DNA of 64,000 bases from Glandiceps talaboti (taxonomy: Eukaryota > Hemichordata > Enteropneusta > Spengelidae). Below, in pieces: positions 13,131 to 59,684 of this stretch (within the stretch, counting starts at the first letter, position 1; each line of letters opens with the position of its first letter). The notes beneath the pieces were generated by a model, which did no database searches, was not told the origin of the DNA, and saw only the letters and a list, made by a program, of their open reading frames with translations. The translations under genes and the position numbers were made by a program. The DNA is taken from contig NC_135564.1 in assembly GCF_964340395.1 (NCBI RefSeq), positions 329,501 to 393,500 of the forward strand, written 5' to 3'.

Positions 13131-14036
13131 TCAATAATCTGCATTATCCATAAATGAAGTCTGTGCTTCTAGTTGATGTACATTCTCACTATCTGATGTA
13201 GCTGTCTCACCAGTTACTTCCACTACATCATATGCACAATAGTCTTCCAGACCAAGCTTAGAACACAGCCAGCCATAAAATCCTTTCTCAAAATCTTTGA
13301 AATCTCTTTTCCATGATGTTAAAAACCAGGAAATCTGGATAACAGCTGCATACAGAGCTATTGCAAGTGTCAGAATTACAATGACGGGAGGGTAAAAAAT
13401 TATCAACACCGGACACAATAAAATTCTATAGCCAAAGCCTTTGTCATCATAAAAATGTACAAAAATATTATACCAAGTAATGGTTCCAAGGTAGCCAGCA
13501 ACTACAAATGATGCAATAAATGCAACAGGTACACATATGAAACTGAATAATACAATATGGATGCCTTTATCAAATCCCCAAACACAGTCCTCGGGTGTAT
13601 CTTCATGTGTCAATGCTCGTAAGTTGTCCTCAGACATTGTCACGTGGATAATCTCACTGGATTTATGTCCACGTCGTAACGTACCAACCATTGTAATATT
13701 CTTACCACCAATAGATGATGTTGTTGTGTTGAGGGTATCTCTACTTGGACTGTGTTCTAACACTGTAATCTGATTGCTATCCATACTGGTATCTTTCAGT
13801 GGTTCTAATTGGACATCACAGTCCATACTGTTATCTTTCAGTGGCTCCAATTGGATGTCACAGTCCATACTGGTATCTTTCAGTGGTTCTAATTGGACGT
13901 CACATTCACTCACAACATGTGCATTATCTATACTACTACTACTACCTCCACCACTCTCTTCTCTTTCACTGTTCATCTCTCTGGCTGAACTTGACTCAGG
14001 ATCAATATTTTTACTTTTTTCTCTTGCCTTTGGCAT
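13131..14036 (-). CDS. TMEM169: Transmembrane protein 169 ortholog
   Basis: A single-exon frame of 301 codons, starting at the ATG complement at 14034-14036 (A at -3) and ending in TGA at 13131-13133. Length matches vertebrate TMEM169 (about 297 aa). The C-terminal half carries the family signature: CVWGFDKGIH at 151-160, a hydrophobic segment at about 159-184 running into YLGTITWYNIF, a second at about 204-238, then EKGFYGWLCSKLGLED at 250-265. The N-terminal 150 residues are Ser/acidic-rich, low complexity and presumably cytosolic. Residues 45-86 are three tandem copies of a 14-residue unit (CDVQLEPLKDTSMD), a coding 42-bp minisatellite. The biochemical role of the family is not established, so I infer only a two-pass membrane protein. 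No intron interrupts the coding region. Confidence 0.93.
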   Translation of the reverse strand: MPKAREKSKNIDPESSSAREMNSEREESGGGSSSSIDNAHVVSECDVQLEPLKDTSMDCDIQLEPLKDNSMDCDVQLEPLKDTSMDSNQITVLEHSPSRDTLNTTTSSIGGKNITMVGTLRRGHKSSEIIHVTMSEDNLRALTHEDTPEDCVWGFDKGIHIVLFSFICVPVAFIASFVVAGYLGTITWYNIFVHFYDDKGFGYRILLCPVLIIFYPPVIVILTLAIALYAAVIQISWFLTSWKRDFKDFEKGFYGWLCSKLGLEDYCAYDVVEVTGETATSDSENVHQLEAQTSFMDNADY

Positions 14037-14707
14037 CTTGATTTTCTAATATGCGTTTTTTTTCTTCTTTTCAGCCTAGATAATGATAAATCATAATACC
14101 ATATTAATTATTATTACATTTTTTATTTGTTTATTGAAATATTCATGTATACATATCTATTGAAAATATAATCATGCATTCAATTTCATGATTTTCAAGA
14201 TAAGATATTCAGAATTCATGATATGTCATGAATTATTAAAATTGCAATGATATTGATAGTGCAGACGGACTTATGAATAATTTATTACACTACAATGTTC
14301 CTACACATGTAGTCATTGGTCAGAGTCAAATCACATGACCCTCTTTAAATAGACTATTGCCTGTGTAGTCATATTGCCCATGTGTTCAGAGACTATTGCC
14401 CTTGGCTATTGGCACTATTGGCCGGCACTATTGGAGTTATTTTGACTGTCGTACATCTATTCTGTGCATGTTTTCCAGTGTTGTGTGCGCCAGATGACAA
14501 AGTTACTACACTGTGACACACAAGCATATTTCTTGTAAATATTTGAATAAATATAAAAACAAATGAGCTGTGGAGACACTTGAACTCCTACAAATAATGC
14601 CATGTCTGCATTCTATGGTTATCTACAAGAACAATTTGGAAATACACCATGAAAGGGAAACTTTTTTTGGATCGGTGACGAATGGTGATGGACATTGAGT
14701 GGACATG

Positions 14708-27775: not shown

Positions 27776-28149
27776 AACTACGAGATACCCGGCCCAAAAT
27801 GAACCACTGTTTTCAATGCCTATACCACACGACCGGTCGTACGACCAAATTTTGGTCGTGGATAATAGTAGCATATACTAATACGAGTAATAGGGGCTAC
27901 AGTAAGAAATACCCGGATGTTCGAATGATCTTGGACATAGGTCGTCTTCTTTACTCATGTTACTTATCAGGAGTTACCATGAGTATGAATCTAAGACCAG
28001 ACTAAAAATCAGATTCACATTGGAAGAACATATGATTATGAATCAAATCTCCTAATTATGAGGCTGGAACTGGGGCTCAATATATTAGAAGAGTCTGTCT
28101 CATTAAGTATCTTCAATATGTGAACATGAATCTGAATCCGATGACTTTT

Positions 28150-29325
28150 CTCCACGACCGGTCGTATGGTCGTGGCAAGTATTTATTTTCCCTGTGTTTT
28201 CTCCACGACCGGTCGTATGGTCGTGGCAAGTATTTATTTTCCCTTTGGTTTCCCCACGACCGGTCGTATGGTCGTGGCAAGTATTTTTTTCCAATGACTT
28301 TTCTCCACGACCGGTCGTATGGTCGTGGCATGTATTTTTCCACCATCTTTTCTCCACGACCGGTCGTATGGTCGTGGCATGTATTTTTTCCAATGAATTT
28401 TCTCCACGACCGGTCGTATGGTCGTGGCATGTATTTTTTCACCATCTTTTCTCCACGACCGGTCGTATGGTCGTGGCAAGTATTTTTTTCCAATAACTTT
28501 TCTCCCCGGTCGTATGGTCGTGAGAAATATTTTTTTTTTCACCATCTTTTCTCCACGACCGGTCGTATGGTCGTGGCATGTATTTTTTCCAATGAATTTT
28601 CTCCACGACCGGTCGTATGGTCGTGGCATGTATTTTTTCACCATCTTTTCTCCACGACCGGTCGTATGGTCGTGGCATGTATTTTTTCCAATGACTATTC
28701 TCCACGACCGGTCGTATGGTCGTGGCATGTATTTTTTCACCATCTTTTCTCCACGACCGGTCGTATGGTCGTGGCATGTATTTTTTCCAATGACTTTTCT
28801 CCACGACCGGTCGTATGGTCGTGGCATGTGTTTTTTCACCTTCTTTTCTCCACGACCGGTCGTATGGTCGTGGCATGTATTTTTTCACCATCTTTTCTCC
28901 ACGACCGGTCGTATGGTCGTGGCATGTATTTTTTCCAATGACTTTTCTCCACGACCGGTCGTATGGTCGTGGCATGTGTTTTTTCACCATCTTTTCTCCA
29001 CGACCGGTCGTATGGTCGTGGCATGTATTTTTTCACCATCTTTTCTCCACGACCGGTCGTATGGTCGTTGCATGTATTTTTTCACCATCTTTTCTCCACG
29101 ACCGGTCGTATGGTCGTGGCATGTATTTTTTCCAATGACTTTTCTCCACGACCGGTCGTATGGTCGTGGCATGTGTTTTTTCACCATCTTTTCTCCACGA
29201 CCGGTCGTATGGTCGTGGCATGTATTATTTCACCGTCTTTTCTCCACGACCGGTCGTATGGTCGTGGCATGTATTTTTTCCAATGACTTTTCTCCACGAC
29301 CGGTCGTATGGTCGTGGCATCCATT
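28150..29325 (+). repeat. Dyad satellite, left arm (about 24 copies)
   Basis: The unit is a 24-bp dyad (CCACGACC, GGTCGTAT, GGTCGTGG in sequence) followed by one of two linkers of 25 or 26 bp: one with TTCACCATCTTTTCT, the other with TTCCAATGACTTTTCT. Units are thus 49 or 50 bp, and the linkers mostly alternate. The dyad contains the perfect 12-bp palindrome ACGACCGGTCGT. Long frames on both strands (up to 315 codons) cross the array because stops are absent from the unit; they are not genes. Confidence 0.93.
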
Positions 29326-31104
29326 TTGGGCCAAGCGACGTAATATTGGCCCTAATTTTACATAAGTCATAAGTATGATTGAAGTTTAGGATGATCGAGA
29401 ATAGCTGACAAGTGTATACGGACTTTGATCGATACTTGTACACCTTTGCCAACACCTTCGCCACCTCTTACTATAAGAAACGTAATTCATTTGTTTTAGT
29501 TCGCAAGAGGAAATGGGAACATGAACGATTTGTCCTATTGCAACGCTTACTATTTCATGCACCATTTACATCGTCATTGGTATGCAAACTAAACTAGCAA
29601 AATTCATTCAAAGTTTAAAGCGTTTTATTAACTCTGCAAAACATTCTTTCAACGGGAAATTGTATTTACCAGTCTTCGTGCTTTCTATAGAGTCTTCACG
29701 CTGTTTCTGTGGTTTCATTTGCCCGTTTCCGCATATCGACACTCAGTTACTTAAAACAGGCACTGCACAATGACCTTGACTGCTTTCACGTGTTTCAAAT
29801 ATCACGTGAAAAAATGTACAAATCTCTCCAAAAAAACTAAAACCATTGCTGAATAATTAATTTTGACGATCGGTCTTTTCGTTTTCACCTCAATAAATGG
29901 ACACAGGCTGTCGTCGAGACCTGAGTTGACCTCAAATGCGTGACATCGCACCGGTAATTTCCGGATTGTCGTTCGTGTAAGTTTCACGATATGTCGGGCC
30001 CACCCCCAACATGACATGCAGCACGGCCTAGCTTTGAACCTTTTTGACAACTCCTTTTCCACGTAAATTCTGTTAAAATCAATTAGGGTGACGACCATAC
30101 AAGAGTCACATGACATGTCGTACACACAGTGTTGTTTATCTCTCTGCTGTTCGATGTGTCCCAAGAGCGAACCCGTGTCGACTTTGGATTCAAAAAAATG
30201 TTACGTATAAATCCGAGAAATTTTAGGTACATGTTCATGTAGGTAGTTTTAGTAATGTAACAAGTAGAAAGTCCGAGCCCGGGCCGATTCCAGTTCGTCG
30301 AATACTACACGATCATTTCTGGTCGTGACAACTACCGCCAAAGGAAGTCTCTATCAATTTGAGAAATTCGGCAAAAAGACTTCTTTTTAGGTGTTGATGA
30401 ATCCATAATAAAATAAGGTTTTTATAGCAATCACATGGTTGTTTTTGTCACTCATTTATTGCTGAACATTCCATTCAGGCGATGCCATCTTGTCATGTGC
30501 TGGATAATACTTCACGTACTCCAGTTGTGTTCCAAACCGAAGGTGTCGGCCTACAAAGCATGTAACTTGCAAAATTTAACCTGGAGGTCAAGATTCCAGT
30601 TCGCAGCTGTGGGTAATTGACATTGAACCGATTCAAGTTCAAGTTCGATTCGGTTTTAAGTCGGTTTTTCCTGTCCTAACTACGACAAGTTAAACCTGTT
30701 CCGAACCGATTTACTTTGAACCGAATCGACCCCCCCCCCCCCCAGGTAGTTTCGAACCGATTTAAGGGATTCGATTCGAATCGAAACAGGTTCAGAATTT
30801 AGGTCGGGACACAGGGTTACTATCTTGATGCCGAAAGGGGTGTTCTCAATAGGGGGGTTACATGTATTCTGATTAAATCTCATATCAACGAGTTCTGTGT
30901 TAAACGTGATGTCGAAAGTTTTTTCCGTCGTTTATGTCTTATCAGGAACACCTTATTTTTAGTTCGTATAAAGGGATCTTACCTGATTTATATATAAACA
31001 CTTTATTGATGATAATGTTGGTGCAGCTTCACTCAAACTTGCGGAATATGTAACTTCAATCCTGCTATTCAGTATACTTACATGTATGATATTCTGAACT
31101 ATCA

Positions 31105-34199: not shown

Positions 34200-34985
34200 C
34201 AAAAATATTTCTTCATCACTGTCCCATGGTCGTGGAAAAAAGACAGTAAAGAAATACATACCACGACCATACGACCGGTCGTGGAGAAAAGACAGTGAAA
34301 AAACACATGCCACGACCATACGACCGGTCGTAGAGAAAACTCATTGGAAAAAATACATACCACGACCATACGACCGGTCGTGGAGAAAAGACAGTGAAAA
34401 AATACATGCCACGACCATACGACCGGTCGTGGAGAAAAGTCATTGGAAAAAATACATGCCACGACCATACGACCGGTCGTGGAGAAAAGATGGTGAAAAA
34501 ACACATGCCACGACCATACGACCGGTCGTGGAGAAAAGTCATTGGAAAAAATACATGCCACGACCATACGACCGGTCGTGGAGAAAAGATGGTGAAAAAA
34601 CACATGCCACGACCATACGACCGGTCGTGGAGAAAAGTCATTGGAAAAAATATGCCACGACCATACGACCGGTCGTGGAGAAAAGATGGTGAAAAAACAC
34701 ATGCCACGACCATACGACCGGTCGTGGAGAAAAGATGGTGAAAAAACACATGCCACGACCATACGACCGGTCGTGGAGAAAAGTCATTGGAAAAAATACA
34801 TGCCACGACCATACGACCGGTCGTGGAGAAAAGATGGTGAAAAAACACATGCCACGACCATACGACCGGTCGTGGAGAAAAGTCATTGGAAAAAATACAT
34901 GCCACGACCATATGACCGGTCGTGGAGAAAAGACAGTGATAAAATACATATCACGAACAACATAAGCTTACGACCGGTCGTGGAG
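34200..34985 (-). repeat. Dyad satellite, right arm (about 15 copies, inverted)
   Basis: The same 49/50-bp unit as at 28150-29325 but in the opposite orientation, with the same two linkers, seen here as AGAAAAGATGGTGAA and AGAAAAGTCATTGGAA. Edge units carry degenerate linkers (GACAGTG). The orientation makes the two arrays a potential stem of about 0.8 kb. Confidence 0.92.
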
Positions 34986-38773: not shown

Positions 38774-46641
<7,868 letters not shown>

Positions 46642-46744
46642 GTTTGCTAGTAGATTATTCTACACCCGGAAGTATAAAAGCATCCAACACTCCAACACAG
46701 GCCTCGCGAACGCACACCGTGCAATAAATCGTAGCGTCGCTATG

Positions 46745-47003: not shown

Positions 47004-47472
47004 CACAGGGTGCTCAGGCTCATTTAGTTCTGTTTACAAATATAAACAAAACAAAATAAACATACAAGTAAACAAACAAACAAACAAACAAACAAACAAA
47101 CAAACAAAAACAAATAAACAAGTAAGTAAACAAACAAACAAACAAACAAACAAAATAAACTGACAAATGAGTAGATACATACATGAGTAAACGACAACAA
47201 ACCAACGAACAACCAAACACTTCCCCTCCCCCCCGAAATGGTCACATATGGAAATAACCGGTTATTTACATATGTGACCATTTTTTTTTTTGGGGGGGGG
47301 GTGCAGTGTTTGGTTGTTCGTTGGTTTGTTGTCGTTTACTCATGTATGTATCTACTCATTTGTCAGGTTATTTTGTTTGTTTGTTTACTTGTTTGTTTGT
47401 TAGTTTACTTGTATGTTTATTTTGTTTTGTTTATATTTGTAAACAGAACTAAATGTGCCTGAGCACCCTGTG
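47004..47472. mobile_element. Large palindromic fold-back element
   Basis: The arms run from the left CACAGGGTGCTCAGGC to its inverse at 47472 and meet at AACCGGTT (47256-47263), the centre of a TGGTCACATATG...CATATGTGACCA dyad. The arms stay alignable throughout: TTTAGTTCTGTTTACAAATA, CAAA tracts, then GAGTAGATACATACATGAGT. The left arm is about 40 bp longer because its CAAA tracts are longer. Both strands carry open frames built from the CAAA tract that are not genes. Confidence 0.85.
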
Positions 47473-49520: not shown

Positions 49521-51209
49521 ATGGCTAGAAACGGCGCATTGCAACTTTCGCGACAAATCTTGAGAGTTGTCGCAGACAGCCATGGCTTCGACAGAGTTGC
49601 GGCAAAGGTACGTGATAGCACTGATACTCATTTTACCGATCACAGTCCGTGTAGCACTCGTGATCAGGGACTATACTAGTGGTGGACGTCCCCGATATGT
49701 TGGTGCTGATGGTTGTATCATGGAAGTATAACCCACACTTCCATGGTTGTATGTAGCTCTGGATGGATTGTACACTTATGCTACGAGGTTCGACACGTCT
49801 TCCCCTCTCCTATGATCCTGGATGTACGGTATATGGTACGAGGTTCGACATGTCTCAGCTCTGGAATAAGTATATGCTACGAGGTTCGACACGTCTTCCA
49901 AGCTTCCCTCTCTCGTCACAACTAAACTAAAGTCCTCTGCATCTAAAAGCAAGGCTGGCATCTCTGTTTGATGAACAAAATTAAAATTTAAGCTAAACTG
50001 TGCTGGAACACTTTCTCGTTAGACAGAACTGCGACTGATGAAAGACCCAACAGCCGGTCCGAAATGTCTTAAAACAAGGGTCAACTAAGTATCGACCAGG
50101 GACGTATCGCCAATGTCTTCACTGCAATAACCTTGACAAACCGGTCACTTTGCTATTACTGACCTTTAAACCAAACAAAATAATCAAGTTTGAACCAGCT
50201 TTGGATAATATGCTTCCACTTATTTCATGCATGGTAGAGGGGGTGGGTCAGGATTTTTTGTGCAATGATTTGAGGGCGGTCTATATTTTTAATGCCTCGG
50301 TCTTTTGAAGAACACCCCACCCTGTCCAGTCCCTTGGTAATAGTATTGTTATGGAGAGTGCCACTATTGGCCATAAGGGGGGTAACACATGCGCTGTTAC
50401 ATAGAGGTCTTGGGTGAGACAATCCGATATGATATGATATGATATGATATGATATACGATATGATACGATACGATACAATACGATACGATACGATACAAT
50501 ACGATACGATACGATACGATACGATAAGATGCGATACAATACGATACGATATATGATATATATATTGTATATAGTAGTCCTGTGGGTGCCATAGCTTGAA
50601 GGTGTGCTAGATGCACCAAAAGATAAGTATTTTACTTTGGGATTGGAAGTATACGGCTGTCTTCAAACACCACTACGTGTTCAACAAGTCATTTATATCA
50701 ATTTATCCATATTAATATATAACATACAGTACATATATATAATTTGGTTGTCTGGTAGAGTTATAGATAATACAATTGTCATTATTATCATATGCCTATG
50801 CCCAGATCAATTGTTCTTGATGAAATTTAATGTGAAATATCACGTCTGATATGTGTTAAACGTCATCAGAGAATGCCTTTCTGATTTGACAAGACACAGT
50901 GATTCCAAACATGAACAAACATAAGCAAACAAAATGGTGGACGGTCTTCCACATTGATGTAATCACATATGGCCACAAAAAATGACACTTCTTTCAAAAC
51001 AGGGAAATTTTGACAAAATATCCATACCCAAATGATACTATTTACAATCATACATTAAATTATAAATTCATAACTACACTGTACAGGTATCATTCGTTTA
51101 GCAACAGTGTCGCCAACACGACTGTAGGCCACCTACTATGTGTACACTACTTCAGAAGTTACACTCGTTTAACCAACTGAGGTTCAGTAGTGCTTTAGGC
51201 ATCATGAAA

Positions 51210-51249
<40 letters not shown>

Positions 51250-54200
51250 AATGACTTAAAGTCAAAAACATGCCAGACTGATTGCCTTGGTTTTTGGTGG
51301 GGACATTACTTAGGGCGTGTAGATGGGAAATTGTTCAAATGAAAATGATCACACCAGAGATGTGTGTTTTGGGTCAACAAATGTTATTTTTGGTCAAAAA
51401 ACTTAAACTCTAAAACTACTGGGCAGATTGGCCTGAAATTTAGTGGGAATGTTCTTGGGGGTGTTTAATTTAAGAATTATTCATGACAAGCATAGCAACA
51501 GACAGGTAGGTAAGTAATTAAAGAATAAATAAAATGTATGTTAATATGCCTAGCAACAAGACCACACCCATAGCAACATCCAAATGATGGTAATATTGCA
51601 ATGATGAAAACTGGGAAGGGTAGGCAAATGAATAAAGATTCCGAAAATGTATGCAAATATGCTAGCAACAAGACCACACCCATAGCAACAGCCAAATACA
51701 GTTGTGTTACAATGCCATTGGCGCTATTTTTAACATATTAAGTCATTTTCTGAAATTTTTAGAGGAATACACTACAACAAAAATTGTATTTCAAAATAAT
51801 TATGAAAAGTTACACAGATCATTTAAACATCCCATCAAAGCAGTTTTACATGTTCAGCAGACTGTGCACGTGAATGTCGCATGAAAATAAAGTCGTGCAA
51901 TGCACGAGGCACATGTCAGGCTGTGCCCTTTTTATTTTTCATGTATTCTCTTTGAGTTCCTGGGTATGGGCATATGATAAATCAGTTGTTATCTGATATC
52001 ACCTCTTCGTTTGTCATATCTCCATTCATGCCATTCCGGCAATGTGATACTCATCTTATGACTCTTGTCAATATGTGGAAACAGCATTCAAAGTAATACA
52101 ACAAACAAAGGGTATTATCCTCATATTATTTACCTCCGTACTATAGGTCAGTGTTGTAACAAAGGGTAATATCCTCATATTATTTACCTCTGTACTATAG
52201 GTCAGTGTTGTAACAAAGGGTATTATCCTCATATTATTTACCTCCGTACTATAGGTCAGTGTTGTAACAAAGGGTATTATCCTCATATTATTTACCTCCG
52301 TACTATAGGTCAGTGTTGTAACAAAGGGTAATATCCTCATATTATTTACCTCCGTACTATAGGTCAGTGTTGTAACAAAGGGTAATATCCTCATATTATT
52401 TACCTCTGTACTATAGGTCAGTGTTGTAACAAAGGGTATTATCCTCATATTATTTACCTCCGTACTATAGGTCAGTGTTGTAACAAAGGGTATTATCCTC
52501 ATATTATTTACCTCCGTACTATAGGTCAGTGTTGTAACAAAGGGTAATATCCTCATATTATTTACCTCCGTACTATAGGTCAGTGTTGTAACAAAGGGTA
52601 ATATCCTCATATTATTTACCTCCATACTATAGGTCAGTGTTGTAACAAAGGGTATTATCCTCATATTATTTACCTCCGTACTATAGGTCAGTGTTGTAAC
52701 AAAGGGTATTATCCTCATATTATTTACCTCCGTACTATAGGTCAGTGTTGTAACAAAGGGTAATATCCTCATATTATTTACCTCTGTACTATAGATCAGT
52801 GTTGTAACAAAGGGTAATATCCTCATATTATTTACCTCCATACTATAGGTCAGTGTTGTAACAAAGGATAATATCCTCATATTATTTACCTCCATACTAT
52901 AGGTCAGTGTTGTAACAAAGGGTAATATCCTCATATTATTTACCTCCGTACTATAGGTCAGTGTTGTAACAAAGGGTAATATCCTCATATTATTTACCTC
53001 CATACTATAGGTCAGTGTTGTAACAAAGGGTAATATCCTCATATTATTTACCTCCGTACTATAGGTCAGTGTTGTAACAAAGGGTATTATCCTCATATTA
53101 TTTACCTCCGTACTATAGGTCAGTGTTGTAACAAAGAGTAATATCCTCATATTATTTATCTCCGTACTATAGGTCAGTGTTGTAACAAAGGGTAATATCC
53201 TCATATTATTTACCTCCGTACTATAGGTCAGTGTTGTAACAAAGAGTAATATCCTCATATTATTTACCTCCATACTATAGGTCAGTGTTGTAACAGCTGA
53301 ACCAGGAAGAGTCAAATTTGAGATGCCAGTTTGTGAAGAACATTCCAACAAAGGGGGTACTTTACATGGTGGAATGACAGCTACACTTATAGATATGATG
53401 ACTACAGTAGCATTGATGACCACGGAGAGGGCTGTCCCAGGTGTTAGTGTTGATATGAATATCACGTAAGTAAAGGATGGGGAGGGAAAAAGAGGGATGC
53501 AGTTTACTGCCTTAAAGGCCAATGATTCGGTTCCAGGTTCTTGCATTAGTGCGCTCTTATCTGTGGAGACAAAAGATTAGACAGAATCATTCTGTTATTC
53601 TAGATCATCTTTATAGGTCTACCAGACAACTATTTCTTGCCAAAGTATAATCTTTATCTGTCTGACATAAGACATGGGCCTTTAGACAATATTTTTAATG
53701 GGGGGGGGGGGGGGGGATATTATTCCCCTTTGAAGTTTTAGCAACAGAAAAAGGCAGTCAACACTGCATAGTGTTACTGCTTGTTGTACAACACGTAACA
53801 GCCAACCAGAGCATTTCCTTGCTTGCCATAATCATTTATAGCATCCATATAAAGTGTAAATACCACTGGTTTCATTAATATAAGACTAGCATGTAGCCTT
53901 TCCAACTGTGGTCAATTTGTAAACAGTGTTGTCAGCTATCATAGCATGTAACCTTTCCAACTGTGGTCAATTTGTAAGGGAAGAAAGGTTAGGGTGATTT
54001 TATCTTAGCTGCGTTTCTATATGCTTTAGGTTACCCTGAAAACCTAATTGTCACCAGTCTTGCATAATCAATGTTACCTTTCTAAAGTAGAGGTATGCAA
54101 ATTGACAAATCTGGTTTTACTCTTGGGACAGGTGAGTGATTTTGGGAAGAAACAGAGTTACAATCATCCCATTGTAATTAAAATCTGATGTAGTGATATG

Positions 54201-54718
54201 ATTCCATTTCTTTATTTACTTCTGTTTCCTTTACACATTGTCATTTGTTTGTAATTCTGTTATTTTGAGACTGGGCTTCCCTTTTCCTAAATCTGACCTC
54301 TTCCTATGGCTTTAGGAAGAAGGTGCTCACTCCACTGCTAAAATTTCACTTCTCTTTTTAAGAAAGATGCTGAAGCATAGATTTTCTTGGCTTTAAAACA
54401 CTGTAACTGAATTTATGAACCACACTTTACTTCCTTGGCTTATTATGTCATGAAAGATCTACAAGTCAGAACAGTTTTGGCATATCTTCAATCGATTACT
54501 TCTGTATTTTACTATAATTATCCAAAAAATAATTCTGACATTTTCCCATTTACTGTACTAGGTACATGAAAGCAGCCTTTCCTGGAGAGACAATAACTAT
54601 CGATGCCAAAGTTTTGAAAGCTGGTAAAACACTAGGATTTACTACTTGTGATATTACCAATGAAAAGGGTGCTCTTGTAGCTCAGGCAAGACATACAAAG
54701 TTTATTGGTAGCTCTTAG
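49521..54718 (+). CDS. ACOT13: Acyl-CoA thioesterase 13 (hotdog fold)
   Basis: Three coding exons, 49521-49607, 53281-53465 and 54562-54718, give 142 aa (human 140). Donors are AAG|GTACGT and AC|GTAAGT; acceptors are CTATAG|GTC and TACTAG|GTA. Exon 1 ends RVVADSHGFDRVAAK and exon 2 continues VSVVTAEPGRVKFEMP, aligning with the vertebrate family. Hotdog active-site residues are present: Asn52 in HSNKGGTLHGG, His58-Gly59, Asp67 in ATLIDMM and Ser85 in PGVSVDMN. Exon 3 encodes the C-terminal strands (ETITIDAKVLKAGKTLGFTT) and ends FIGSS. The known role is hydrolysis of medium/long-chain acyl-CoA as a homotetramer, mitochondrial and cytosolic, often with PC-TP in vertebrates. The remarkable feature is intron 1, whose 3' end is a 22-copy array of the acceptor region, so only the last copy gives this protein. 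Confidence 0.96.
49764..49897. repeat. Short dispersed repeat in ACOT13 intron 1
   Basis: Three copies of a core containing TACGAGGTTCGACACGTCTT (one copy reads CATGTCTC) at about 50-bp spacing. Non-coding. Confidence 0.75.
50431..50556. repeat. GATAC/GATAT pentanucleotide array
   Basis: About 125 bp of GATAT then GATAC with AATAC variants, in ACOT13 intron 1. The minus strand frame rich in SYRIV is an artefact. Confidence 0.93.
51211..51248. repeat. GT dinucleotide repeat
   Basis: About 15 GT units followed by GTAT, in ACOT13 intron 1. Confidence 0.9.
51480..51695. repeat. Diverged tandem duplication, ACOT13 intron 1
   Basis: Two to three copies of a segment of about 130 bp containing AGCAACAAGACCACACCCAT and AGCAACA-CCAAAT. 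Confidence 0.65.
52097..53280 (+). repeat. 54-bp array carrying duplicated ACOT13 splice acceptors
   Basis: About 22 units of 54 bp. Each unit is GTCAGTGTTGTAACA, then AAGGGTAWTATCC, then TCATATTATTTACCTCC, then RTACTATAG. The first 15 nt equal the first five codons of ACOT13 exon 2, and the remaining 39 nt equal the end of intron 1, so the duplicated unit spans the splice junction. The last TAG (53278-53280) is the acceptor that joins to functional exon 2. One upstream copy, near 52795, has TAG|ATCAGT in place of TAG|GTCAGT. The 492-codon minus-strand frame (52068-53546) is an artefact of the 18-codon period. Confidence 0.95.
53245..53281 (+). promoter_or_regulatory. Authentic ACOT13 exon 2 splice acceptor
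   Basis: The tract ATCCTCATATTATTTACCTC and CATACTATAG precedes GTCAGTG. Use of this acceptor keeps phase 0 from exon 1. Any upstream copy would add codons VSVVTKGNILILFTSVL and then hit the TAG of the next unit in frame, giving a truncated product. Confidence 0.85.
53889..53980. repeat. Tandem duplication in ACOT13 intron 2
   Basis: Two copies of a segment containing CCTTTCCAACTGTGGTCAAT, about 55 bp apart. A 17-base G run lies upstream at about 53701-53717. Confidence 0.75.
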
Positions 54719-56090: not shown

Positions 56091-56215
56091 AGTCGCTTGT
56101 AAACTGTTATTCCTTTCCTAAACGGTTTTATTCTTGTCTATGACGGTCCTAATACAGAACAATGACCGTCATAGACAAGAATATAACAGTTTACAAGCGA
56201 CTGTGATTCTGTACA
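56091..56215. mobile_element. Fold-back hairpin upstream of the F-box gene
   Basis: CAGTCGCTTGTAAACTGTTA at the left pairs with TAACAGTTTACAAGCGACTG at the right, then TTCTTGTCTATGACGGTC pairs with GACCGTCATAGACAAGAA around a short loop. The left arm has about 17 extra nt (CCTTTCCTAAACGG). The outermost words TTCTGTACA are also inverse. It lies about 230 bp before the F-box start codon. Confidence 0.75.
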
Positions 56216-56442: not shown

Positions 56443-58204
56443 ATGGTCAAAATACCTAAGATAGTATCTCACAGAGTAGGGACAAGAAAGAGGATACGCA
56501 CTCGCAGTCAGGAGCAATGTTGGAAGCGGGAAGGGAAGCGACTTGTGCGAATCACAATCAGCAGAGATGCCACTGATAGCATGCCAGCCACGTCGGTGAA
56601 TGAATCAGAAGGTGAATGTATATACTATATCGCAGTACAGGAATTTAACTTTGTTTTACATTTGGCACTTCACTCTTCACTGAATATGTACTTCCATATA
56701 TAACATATCATTGACGGATCTGGTCTGGGACCGTGTCTAATGTCAGTGCTTTCTTGTAGTACATCGGTTGGTTAATCCATTGACCCATCCAACCACCAGC
56801 ACTCTCTATATGGGTTAATTTGCATCTGTATAGAATATAATTATATTTGTTATGTAAATTTTATTGCTATGAAATAATTTGACATCCAAAAGCCTTGAAG
56901 TTAAAGTTCTTTTGAAGTTTTTGGGAACACTGGACTGTATCAATAGATCTATTTTGTCTTATTGACATGACCAAAAATAATGCCTATTGACTTCCACTAA
57001 ACATGTAATTTTCAACCAGACTTATAAAGTCAGTACTTGTGCATTTATTGTTTTCTTTGTAGACAAACAGTGAAATAATGATATAGTGTTAAATGACTGA
57101 AATGAAAATATATCAATCACCATGTTTATACATGTGTTTATCTCTTATTTTTAACAAATAGGCCATGGTGATGAAGATTTGGTGTTTCCTGGTTTGCAGA
57201 ACCTGTCAGATGATATTCTTCTTCAGATCTTTTCCTATCTAAGTAAAGAGCAGTTAGCATATTGTGCAGTTGTGTGTCAGAATTGGAGAGATCTTGTGTA
57301 CACACCATCACTGTGGTTTGATTATGAGATACTTCGCTTTTATAATGGATCCTGGAGAGAATATCTTGATGGCAGAAATCGTCAACCACCACTGTGGCAA
57401 CTAAAGAAGGAAGTAAAGAATCTATCACGTGTTATTTCATATGGCTACAAAACAAAAACAAGACTAGTTATACAGAAGACAATAGACACATGGGGTTTGC
57501 ATCCTTGTGGTATATTTGGTGTGATGGATTTTTCCCAAGTCAAAGAACTCAAGATAAGTTGGTCAAAGTCATGGGATTGCTTGACAGATGAGAGACAACA
57601 AATCCAAGTGAATGCATTTGCTTTATTTCTCTTTCATTTGTCTGTGTCTTGTAGTTGTAATTTAGAGTCGTTACACATTCAAACATCAATGAATCTGCTT
57701 GACCAACCCTTTTTTGGTTCAATATATTTTCCATATGGTTTTACCACATTGAAAGAATTAACAGTGACGCATCTTGATATTGATGGAAAGCAAGGATTAC
57801 AACAGCGACATTTAGACATCTTATTGAGTTGTCCTAATCTGAAAAGTTTCAATCTATATCATTCCAAAGCATACAATATTGCTGATGTTATCCCTAGGTC
57901 ACAGTCTTTGGAGTCAATAAGTATGGATTTCTGCAAATGCTTTAACATCATTGACTCTGACTTGCCAAACTTGAGAGAGCTTCATGTAGGCAATGCTGTT
58001 TTTGATGGATGTGATAATCCAAATAGAAGAAGATGCAGAAAACTGAAAGATATCCTGAAAAGGTCAACAAAGTTACAGCTGATAGATATATCTGAGCAAT
58101 CAAGCAAACTGGTGAATGCAAGGAATGGGAGGAAGAAACTTTCATGCTGGAACTGGTCACATTTATGTTATTTGCACAGAACAAAAATATGTGGCTACTG
58201 GTAG
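56443..58204 (+). CDS. F-box protein with LRR-like C-terminal region
   Basis: Two coding exons, 56443-56611 and 57162-58204, joined GAAG|GTGAAT to AATAG|GCCATG in phase 1, giving 403 aa. The start is the first in-frame ATG, with A at -3 and G at +4. Residues 1-56 are strongly basic (RVGTRKRIRTRSQ, KREGKRLVR) and may be a nuclear or RNA/DNA-contact tail. Residues about 66-108 are an F-box: GLQNLSDDILLQIFSYL, then CAVVCQNWRDLVYTPSLW. The rest has irregular leucine-rich repeats (VKELKIS, LESLHIQT, LKELTVTHLD, LKSFNLYHSKA, LESISMDFC, LRELHVG, LQLIDIS). By family knowledge such proteins bind SKP1 through the F-box and choose substrates for SCF ubiquitin ligases through the repeats. I cannot assign it to a named FBXO/FBXL ortholog. 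Intron length 550 bp. Confidence 0.85.
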
Positions 58205-58530
58205 AAGAGCACTGACTTGTGTTAGCTACAAAAGATAACCAGAGCAGCTAGTTACTAAGTATGTAACAGTTACATACAGTGATTTCTCCTTCCGAGCTGT
58301 ACTGGTCATACTTTTGTTAGTAAAATGTTAGTCAAGTCATGAAAACTCAACTTGTTAGAGGTGCTTGTGTGCATACTCTCTTCATGGATATTCAGCATGT
58401 AGCATAAATAGTGGCTGTAAGTCAACAGAAAGGTAGTCGAACCTTGGCACCTAAAAGTAGTAGCAAAATTTTGATCATGTGACTTTTCCAATCATCTTGA
58501 AAATATGGAAGTTTTCCTGTCACAAGAAGT

Positions 58531-59684
58531 AACATTGTAGTAACATTGTAGTAAACATTGTAGTAACATTGTAGTAAACATTGTAGTAAACATTGTAGTA
58601 AACATTGTAGTAACATTGTAGTAACATTGTAGTAACATTGTAGTAAACATTGTAGTAAACATTGTAGTAACATTGTAGTAACATTGTAGTAAACATTGTA
58701 GTAACATTGTAGTAAACATTGTAGTAAACATTGTACATGTAGTAAACATTGTAGTAACATTGTAGTAAACATTGTAGTAACATTGTAGTAACATTGTAGT
58801 AAACATTGTAGTAACATTGTAGTAACATTGTAGTAACATTGTAGTAACATTGTAGTAACATTGAAGTAACATTGTAGTAACATTGTAGTAAACATTGTAG
58901 TAACATTGTAGTAAACATTGTAGTAACATTGTAGTAACATTGTAGTAAACATTGTAGTAACATTGTAGTAACATTGTAGTAACATTGTAGTAACATTGTA
59001 GTAAACATTGTAGTAACATTGTAGTAACATTGTAGTAAACATTGTAGTAACATTGTAGTAACATTGTAGTAAACATTGTAGTAACATTGTAGTAACATTG
59101 TAGTAAACATTGTAGTAACATTGTAGTAACATTGTAGTAACATTGTAGTAAACATTGTAGTAACATTGTAGTAACATTGTAGTAAACATTGTAGTAAACA
59201 TTGTAGTAACATTGTAGTAAACATTGTAGTAACATTGTAGTAACATTGTAGTAAACATTGTAGTAACATTGTAGTAACATTGTAGTAAACATTGTAGTAA
59301 CATTGTAGTAACATTGTAGTAAACATTGTAGTAACATTGTAGTAAACATTGTAGTAAACATTGTAGTAACATTGTAGTAACATTGTAGTAACATTGTAGT
59401 AACATTGTAGTAACATTGTAGTAAACATTGTAGTAACATTGTAGTAACATTGTAGTAAACATTGTAGTAAACATTGTAGTAAACATTGTAGTAACATTGT
59501 AGTAAACATTGTAGTAACATTGTAGTAAACATTGTAGTAACATTGTAGTAAACATTGTAGTAACATTGTAGTAAACATTGTAGTAAACATTGTAGTAACA
59601 TTGTAGTAAACATTGTAGTAACATTGTAGTAAACATTGTAGTAACATTGTAGTAAACATTGTAGTAACATTGTAGTAAACATTG
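58531..59684. repeat. Mixed 11/12-bp minisatellite, about 100 copies
   Basis: Two unit types, TAACATTGTAG (11 bp) and TAAACATTGTAG (12 bp), are interspersed. Only two other variants were noticed: CATTGTACATGTAG near 58730 and CATTGAAGTAAC near 58862. All three minus-strand frames stay open for about 400 codons because neither unit holds a stop on that strand; the resulting LLQCYYNV/TTMFTTM proteins are artefacts. The array begins about 330 bp after the F-box stop codon. Confidence 0.95.

Follow-up and report, generated by a model that had tools for sequence, protein, structure and literature searches.

A 22-copy minisatellite over the AG|GT acceptor of ACOT13 intron 1 in Glandiceps talaboti, possibly tolerated through its own splice point

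How can a gene still make its protein when its splice acceptor has been repeated many times over, each copy nearly identical to the one that has to be used? This question is raised by a locus in the window analysed here, a stretch of 64,000 nucleotides of the enteropneust Glandiceps talaboti. The original prediction described a 22-copy array of the 3' splice site of ACOT13 intron 1, with a 54-bp unit joining the last 39 nt of the intron to the first 15 nt of exon 2. Both statements are borne out: TRF detects a tandem array with a period of 54 bp over 52104-53295, scoring 2237 and counting 22.1 copies, with matches at 97% and indels at 0%, and cutting it in register with exon 2 gives 22 units, each composed of exactly these 39 intronic and 15 exonic nucleotides.

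The identity of the gene is well supported. Exons 1, 2 and 3 together give a predicted frame of 142 codons, without internal stop, that matches the Pfam family 4HBT (PF03061, 4.7e-19). The best match among 17 PDB sequences is THEM2 (4ord_A, E 2.4e-49, residues 7-141), and the top four of the 17 are all named thioesterase superfamily member 2, THEM2, the older name of ACOT13. The frame is thus that of a 4HBT thioesterase at full length, its best relative being THEM2, in agreement with the assignment to ACOT13, a gene of fat metabolism. The alignment with 4ord has no gap at the junction of exons 1 and 2, and it is therefore the last acceptor that yields the conserved protein.

The copies are closely alike. 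Over the 22 whole units in register the mean pairwise identity between units is 0.971, with seven of the 54 columns variable. The start of exon 2, 53281, falls within the last (22nd) unit, leaving 21 copies upstream of the functional acceptor. The sequence TAG|GTCAGTGTTGTAACA is exact in 20 of these, close to the figure of about 20 upstream acceptors given at first; the single deviant copy, 52756-52809, reads TAG|ATCAGTGTTGTAACA. The AG is kept in all 22 units and is followed by GT in 21, and the motif CTCAT is unvaried in all 22. The span first reported, 52097..53281, captured the array but not its boundaries, since it starts 7 to 11 bases early and ends on the first exon base. As RNA, a four-unit stretch (52972-53187) is no better folder than its shuffled versions: 73 of 200 of these do as well, and z is -0.23. 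The features of the locus are collected in Table 1.

Table 1. Features of the ACOT13 locus and its splice-site array; positions are those of the window.
Feature	Position	Strand	Description	Basis
ACOT13 exon 1, coding part	49521..49607	+	29 codons; phase 0 end GCAAAG|gtacgt	ungapped THEM2 match across junction
ACOT13 intron 1	49608..53280	+	3,673 nt; array at its end	sequence
AACA at array left edge	52104..52107	+	probable microhomology of first duplication	sequence
Array	52108-53295	+	22 head-to-tail 54-bp units	TRF and cut in register with exon 2
13th of 22 units	52756..52809	+	splice point AG|AT instead of AG|GT	sequence
Functional acceptor copy	53242..53280	+	ctcat branch-like motif, A at -24 from exon 2; pyrimidine-rich stretch; tactatag	sequence
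ACOT13 exon 2	53281..53465	+	185 nt; begins GTCAGTGTTG; donor CAC|GTAAGT	sequence
ACOT13 exon 3, coding part with stop	54562..54718	+	acceptor CTAG|GTACAT	sequence

What would the upstream acceptors produce? Exon 1 was joined in silico to each of the 22 acceptors. All 21 upstream joins give a frame of 46 amino acids (29 + 17) that ends in an in-frame stop, the TAG in the acceptor of the next unit, exactly as had been proposed for the use of any upstream copy; the last acceptor, 53281, is the only one to yield the full protein of 142 codons. Judged by these translations, the upstream acceptors are predicted poison sites. The premature stop lies at least 185 nt upstream of the exon 2-3 junction, and by the 50-55 nt rule of nonsense-mediated decay such transcripts are expected to be degraded.

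The nature of the repeated splice point nevertheless weakens the case for simple loss of such transcripts. The exon starts with GTCAGT directly after TATAG, so that the repeated point reads AG|GT in 21 of 22 units; the duplicated segment is thus flanked by AG|GT, in phase with the splice junction, except for one AG|AT. From splice point to splice point, 20 of the 21 segments run GT...AG and the remaining one begins AT. Each of the 20 carries a donor-like GTCAGT, a branch-like CTCAT with its A at -24 (branch-like with reference to the branch-point consensus), a pyrimidine-rich stretch and TATAG. At 20 of the 21 upstream copies, a junction with exon 1 would recreate the predicted donor AAG|GTCAGT; the 13th unit, with its AG|AT, is unable to give it. 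The predicted U1 duplex energies are -8.4 kcal/mol for the rebuilt AAG|GTCAGT and -8.3 kcal/mol for TAG|GTCAGT as it stands in the array, compared with -7.2 and -7.3 kcal/mol for the gene's own donors at exons 1 and 2. Among 3,260 GT sites outside 17 larger arrays of the window, 17 match or exceed AAG|GTCAGT in U1 energy, and 18 match or exceed TAG|GTCAGT. A simple tally of positions that agree with the donor consensus gives 9 of 11 for the exon 2 donor, 8 for the rebuilt junction and 7 for the exon 1 donor. The rebuilt donor thus beats the exon 1 donor by both measures, but the exon 2 donor by energy only, a lead that is not robust. A C at +3, as in GTCAGT, is uncommon among donors.

The AG|GT closure and the rebuilt donor together imply that a wrong acceptor choice would in principle be repairable by a second splice, and that the array could therefore grow without breaking the gene. 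Removal of the array leaves the reading frame unchanged, exon 1 and the last copy forming the open THEM2 frame. The original view that a wrong choice is lost is thus correct as to the early stop, present after all 21 upstream acceptors, but is weakened as an account of simple loss by the donor predicted to be rebuilt at 20 of them. Stepwise removal of the copies had been named as an option; the AG|GT at the repeated point and the GT-AG segments that it creates had gone unreported.

We conclude, with a probability of about 0.6, that the array is a duplication-born minisatellite that has grown over an AG|GT acceptor and may be tolerated through the combined effects of last-acceptor choice, re-splicing and nonsense-mediated decay. 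The boundary of intron 1 and exon 2 would have been duplicated in tandem to give a minisatellite, which was probably enlarged in blocks of units. Exon definition may favour the last copies, with exon 2 measuring 185 nt and having its own donor after 53465. If an upstream acceptor were used, the AAG|GTCAGT junction could act as donor in a further splicing step that joins it to a later copy. Re-splicing that reached the last copy would restore the same mRNA, and the unspliced remainder, which bears the stop, would go to nonsense-mediated decay. A larger copy number may slightly lower output, but this would be incidental, not a control that has evolved. On our best reading the tolerance would be owed to the repeated point being AG|GT, the probability given above being that of the reading as a whole.

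Some aspects of splicing bear on how far such repair could go. At 54 nt, an intron would be close to or under the minimum length usual in many animals, and repair may therefore need jumps of two or more units. The re-use of donors rebuilt at exon junctions is repressed in human cells by the exon junction complex (EJC; PMC6224609), an effect that could block the proposed repair. The rebuilt donor is present in the correct mRNA too, where it could skip exon 2, and protection by the EJC is probably needed regardless of the array. GT is also the commonest dinucleotide at exon starts (PMC6224609), so that the AG|GT closure is no rarity and may be a matter of luck; it is permissive, and no evidence of design.

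Could the choice of the last acceptor suffice? That the array is neutral, with exon definition picking 53281 in nearly all transcripts, the upstream copies ignored and re-splicing playing no part, is a credible if rather unlikely alternative. The last acceptor alone gives a short exon (185 nt, against 239 to 1,319 nt from the upstream acceptors). A parallel is offered by intron 7 of human factor VII (F7), which has a variable number of 37-bp donor repeats and in which splicing normally uses the most upstream donor alone (PMC6627357). The last copy itself, however, lends this alternative little help. Its tract content (0.70) equals that of the preceding copy, and at the seven variable columns no base is unique to it, only their combination. 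No advantage of the last copy over its neighbours was found in this comparison, which covered tract content and the seven variable columns and not a full acceptor score. F7 intron 7 resembles the array in that a tandem repeat copies a splice site, every unit here containing one (22 acceptor copies). It differs in the site concerned, since F7 repeats a donor, according to the source cited, and the array repeats an acceptor together with 15 nt of exon. We do not, therefore, file the array as a member of the F7 type, but as one that may work alike. Nothing relating F7 repeat number to the factor VII level was found among the matches listed, nor in the available part of PMC3778950.

A second comparison is with recursive splicing. 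At recursive splice sites acceptor and donor are juxtaposed at AG|GT and the donor is rebuilt upon splicing (PMC8605326, PMC6224609). The array units share with these sites, and with ratchet points, the juxtaposition of an acceptor and a predicted donor at AG|GT, and rebuilding of the donor at the splice point is predicted for 20 of the 21 upstream copies (-8.4 kcal/mol). Fly ratchet points are mostly found in long introns; the Ubx intron, of ~73 kb, has two RS microexons (PMC8605326). This contrasts with the 21 AG|GT points of the array, which follow one another every 54 nt, or after 108 nt where the AG|AT unit intervenes. The array also departs from the pattern of RS-exons, since the donor of an RS-exon would here be the GT of the next unit or a weaker GTAATA. 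That GTAATA, considered as a microexon donor within the units, was rejected as weaker (-6.0; 121 of 3,260 GT sites are as strong). The array might still be a chain of ~20 back-to-back ratchet points, in which each 54-nt unit could be read either as an intron (GT...AG) or as a poison exon (AG|54 nt|GT, with stop). Intron 1 would then be removed in recursive hops that vary in number, and the amount of ACOT13 mRNA that escapes decay would be set jointly by EJC activity and the number of copies. We consider this unlikely.

The suggestion that the array acts as a length-dependent splicing rheostat, with copy number setting the fraction of poisoned transcripts and hence ACOT13 output, under selection, appears highly improbable. 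It would draw on the stop that follows 17 codons after all 21 upstream acceptors and on the 97% likeness of the copies, with which allele length differences may well exist. Against it, a 13-column core drawn by hand (CTCAT, AG, GTCAGT) holds one of the seven variable columns, compared with 1.7 expected by chance, and three further variable columns lie in the pyrimidine-rich stretch; these seven columns, set against chance, give no signal either way of selection on splice signals within the array. The AG|GT closure would, moreover, buffer any effect of copy number. An assembly artefact, with copy number collapsed or inflated or the array false, is scarcely to be credited: copies 97% alike over 1.2 kb do exceed the span of short reads, but the non-trivial order of the seven variable columns, the clean edges, the intact 142-codon frame and the further arrays in the window all speak against it, while being still compatible with a wrong copy number.

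The edges and the internal order of the array offer some indication of its origin. The AACA at its left edge also ends every unit, including the exon 2 copy, where it occupies +12 to +15, and the left flank is otherwise little like the unit (17 of 54 positions match in all). This fits a first duplication between two AACA sites, from a single-copy ancestor. The order of the variants has a weak 4-unit period, reached by 46 of 2,000 shuffles; this is the best of eight lags (the runner-up, lag 7, is reached by 125 of 2,000) and fails correction for eight tests. Growth in blocks of units, by unequal exchange or slippage, would fit such an order. Arrays are common in this window. Seventeen larger ones, hand-picked from the TRF rows, cover 17.6% of it, a figure that is not a total, since small or simple-repeat rows with a period of 11 or more (for example 8922, 19046, 33906, 37119, 39211, 45649, 47044, 47372 and 55056) are left out. 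An array at a splice site is therefore less surprising here than it would be in an array-poor genome.

The window contains several other features. On the minus strand, a gene of the TMEM169 family (13134-14045; PF15052, 1.4e-48) includes within its open frame a 42-bp tandem repeat (13780-13904) encoding a 14-residue repeat, and a Death-domain open frame lies at 46291-46659 (PF00531, 7.5e-11). An F-box open frame at 57155-58201 (PF12937, 7.3e-12) precedes a 1.16-kb array with an 11-bp unit (58528-59684). Two arrays with units of ~49 bp, at 28145-29327 and 34228-34956, lie ~5 kb apart, and by eye their consensus units look mutually reverse-complementary. A large inverted repeat at 47004-47472 has arms measuring 101 nt (96%) and 145 nt (86%), with AAAC/TTTG runs within, and has the look of a foldback element. 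A 30-nt inverted repeat at 56119-56193, 93% complementary with 15 nt between its arms, lies between ACOT13 and the F-box frame. A stop-to-stop frame of 502 codons on the minus strand (52071-53576), running through the array (as an 18-residue repeat) and exon 2, was rejected as an antisense gene; it is mechanical, since any frame free of stops within one 54-nt unit stays open from copy to copy.

How does the array relate to known ways of gaining introns? Tandem duplication of AGGT segments is a known route, and the listed gains by AGGT or boundary duplication comprise the Rogers model, ATP2A1, potato RdRp, fission yeast and Drosophila cases (PMC4974935, PMC2891723). In the potato gene a duplication spanning an intron-exon boundary made a new intron, the new donor being a cryptic GTAAG in the exon and not the boundary's own GT; in fission yeast genes, introns lie across two and four 24-bp AGGT duplicates (PMC4974935). 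As in these tandem-duplication introns, duplication supplies predicted splice signals by which the extra segment could be removed. As in potato RdRp, the duplicated stretch crosses an intron-exon boundary; in the account of the potato gene cited above the donor was a cryptic GTAAG, whereas the repeated point of the array is itself AG|GT. The array differs further in having 21 extra copies, not one to a few, and in that these sit at a pre-existing acceptor and lengthen an old intron. A limited literature search on splice-boundary repeats and recursive splicing turned up no description of an array of this size on the acceptor side. Tandem-duplication introns, F7 donor repeats and recursive sites are all known, and it is the copy number and the acceptor-side form that make the array an unusual variant.

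Finally, the array, if real and transcribed, suggests a route by which an intron may gain over 1 kb from copies of its own boundary while the protein stays intact. On the same condition it would provide a natural series of near-identical acceptors within one intron, in which the spliceosome's positional ranking of identical 3' splice sites would become directly testable. The same series would make it testable whether donors rebuilt at exon junctions rescue a wrong splice, and whether exon starts of the AG|GT kind confer tolerance to minisatellites that invade a splice site.
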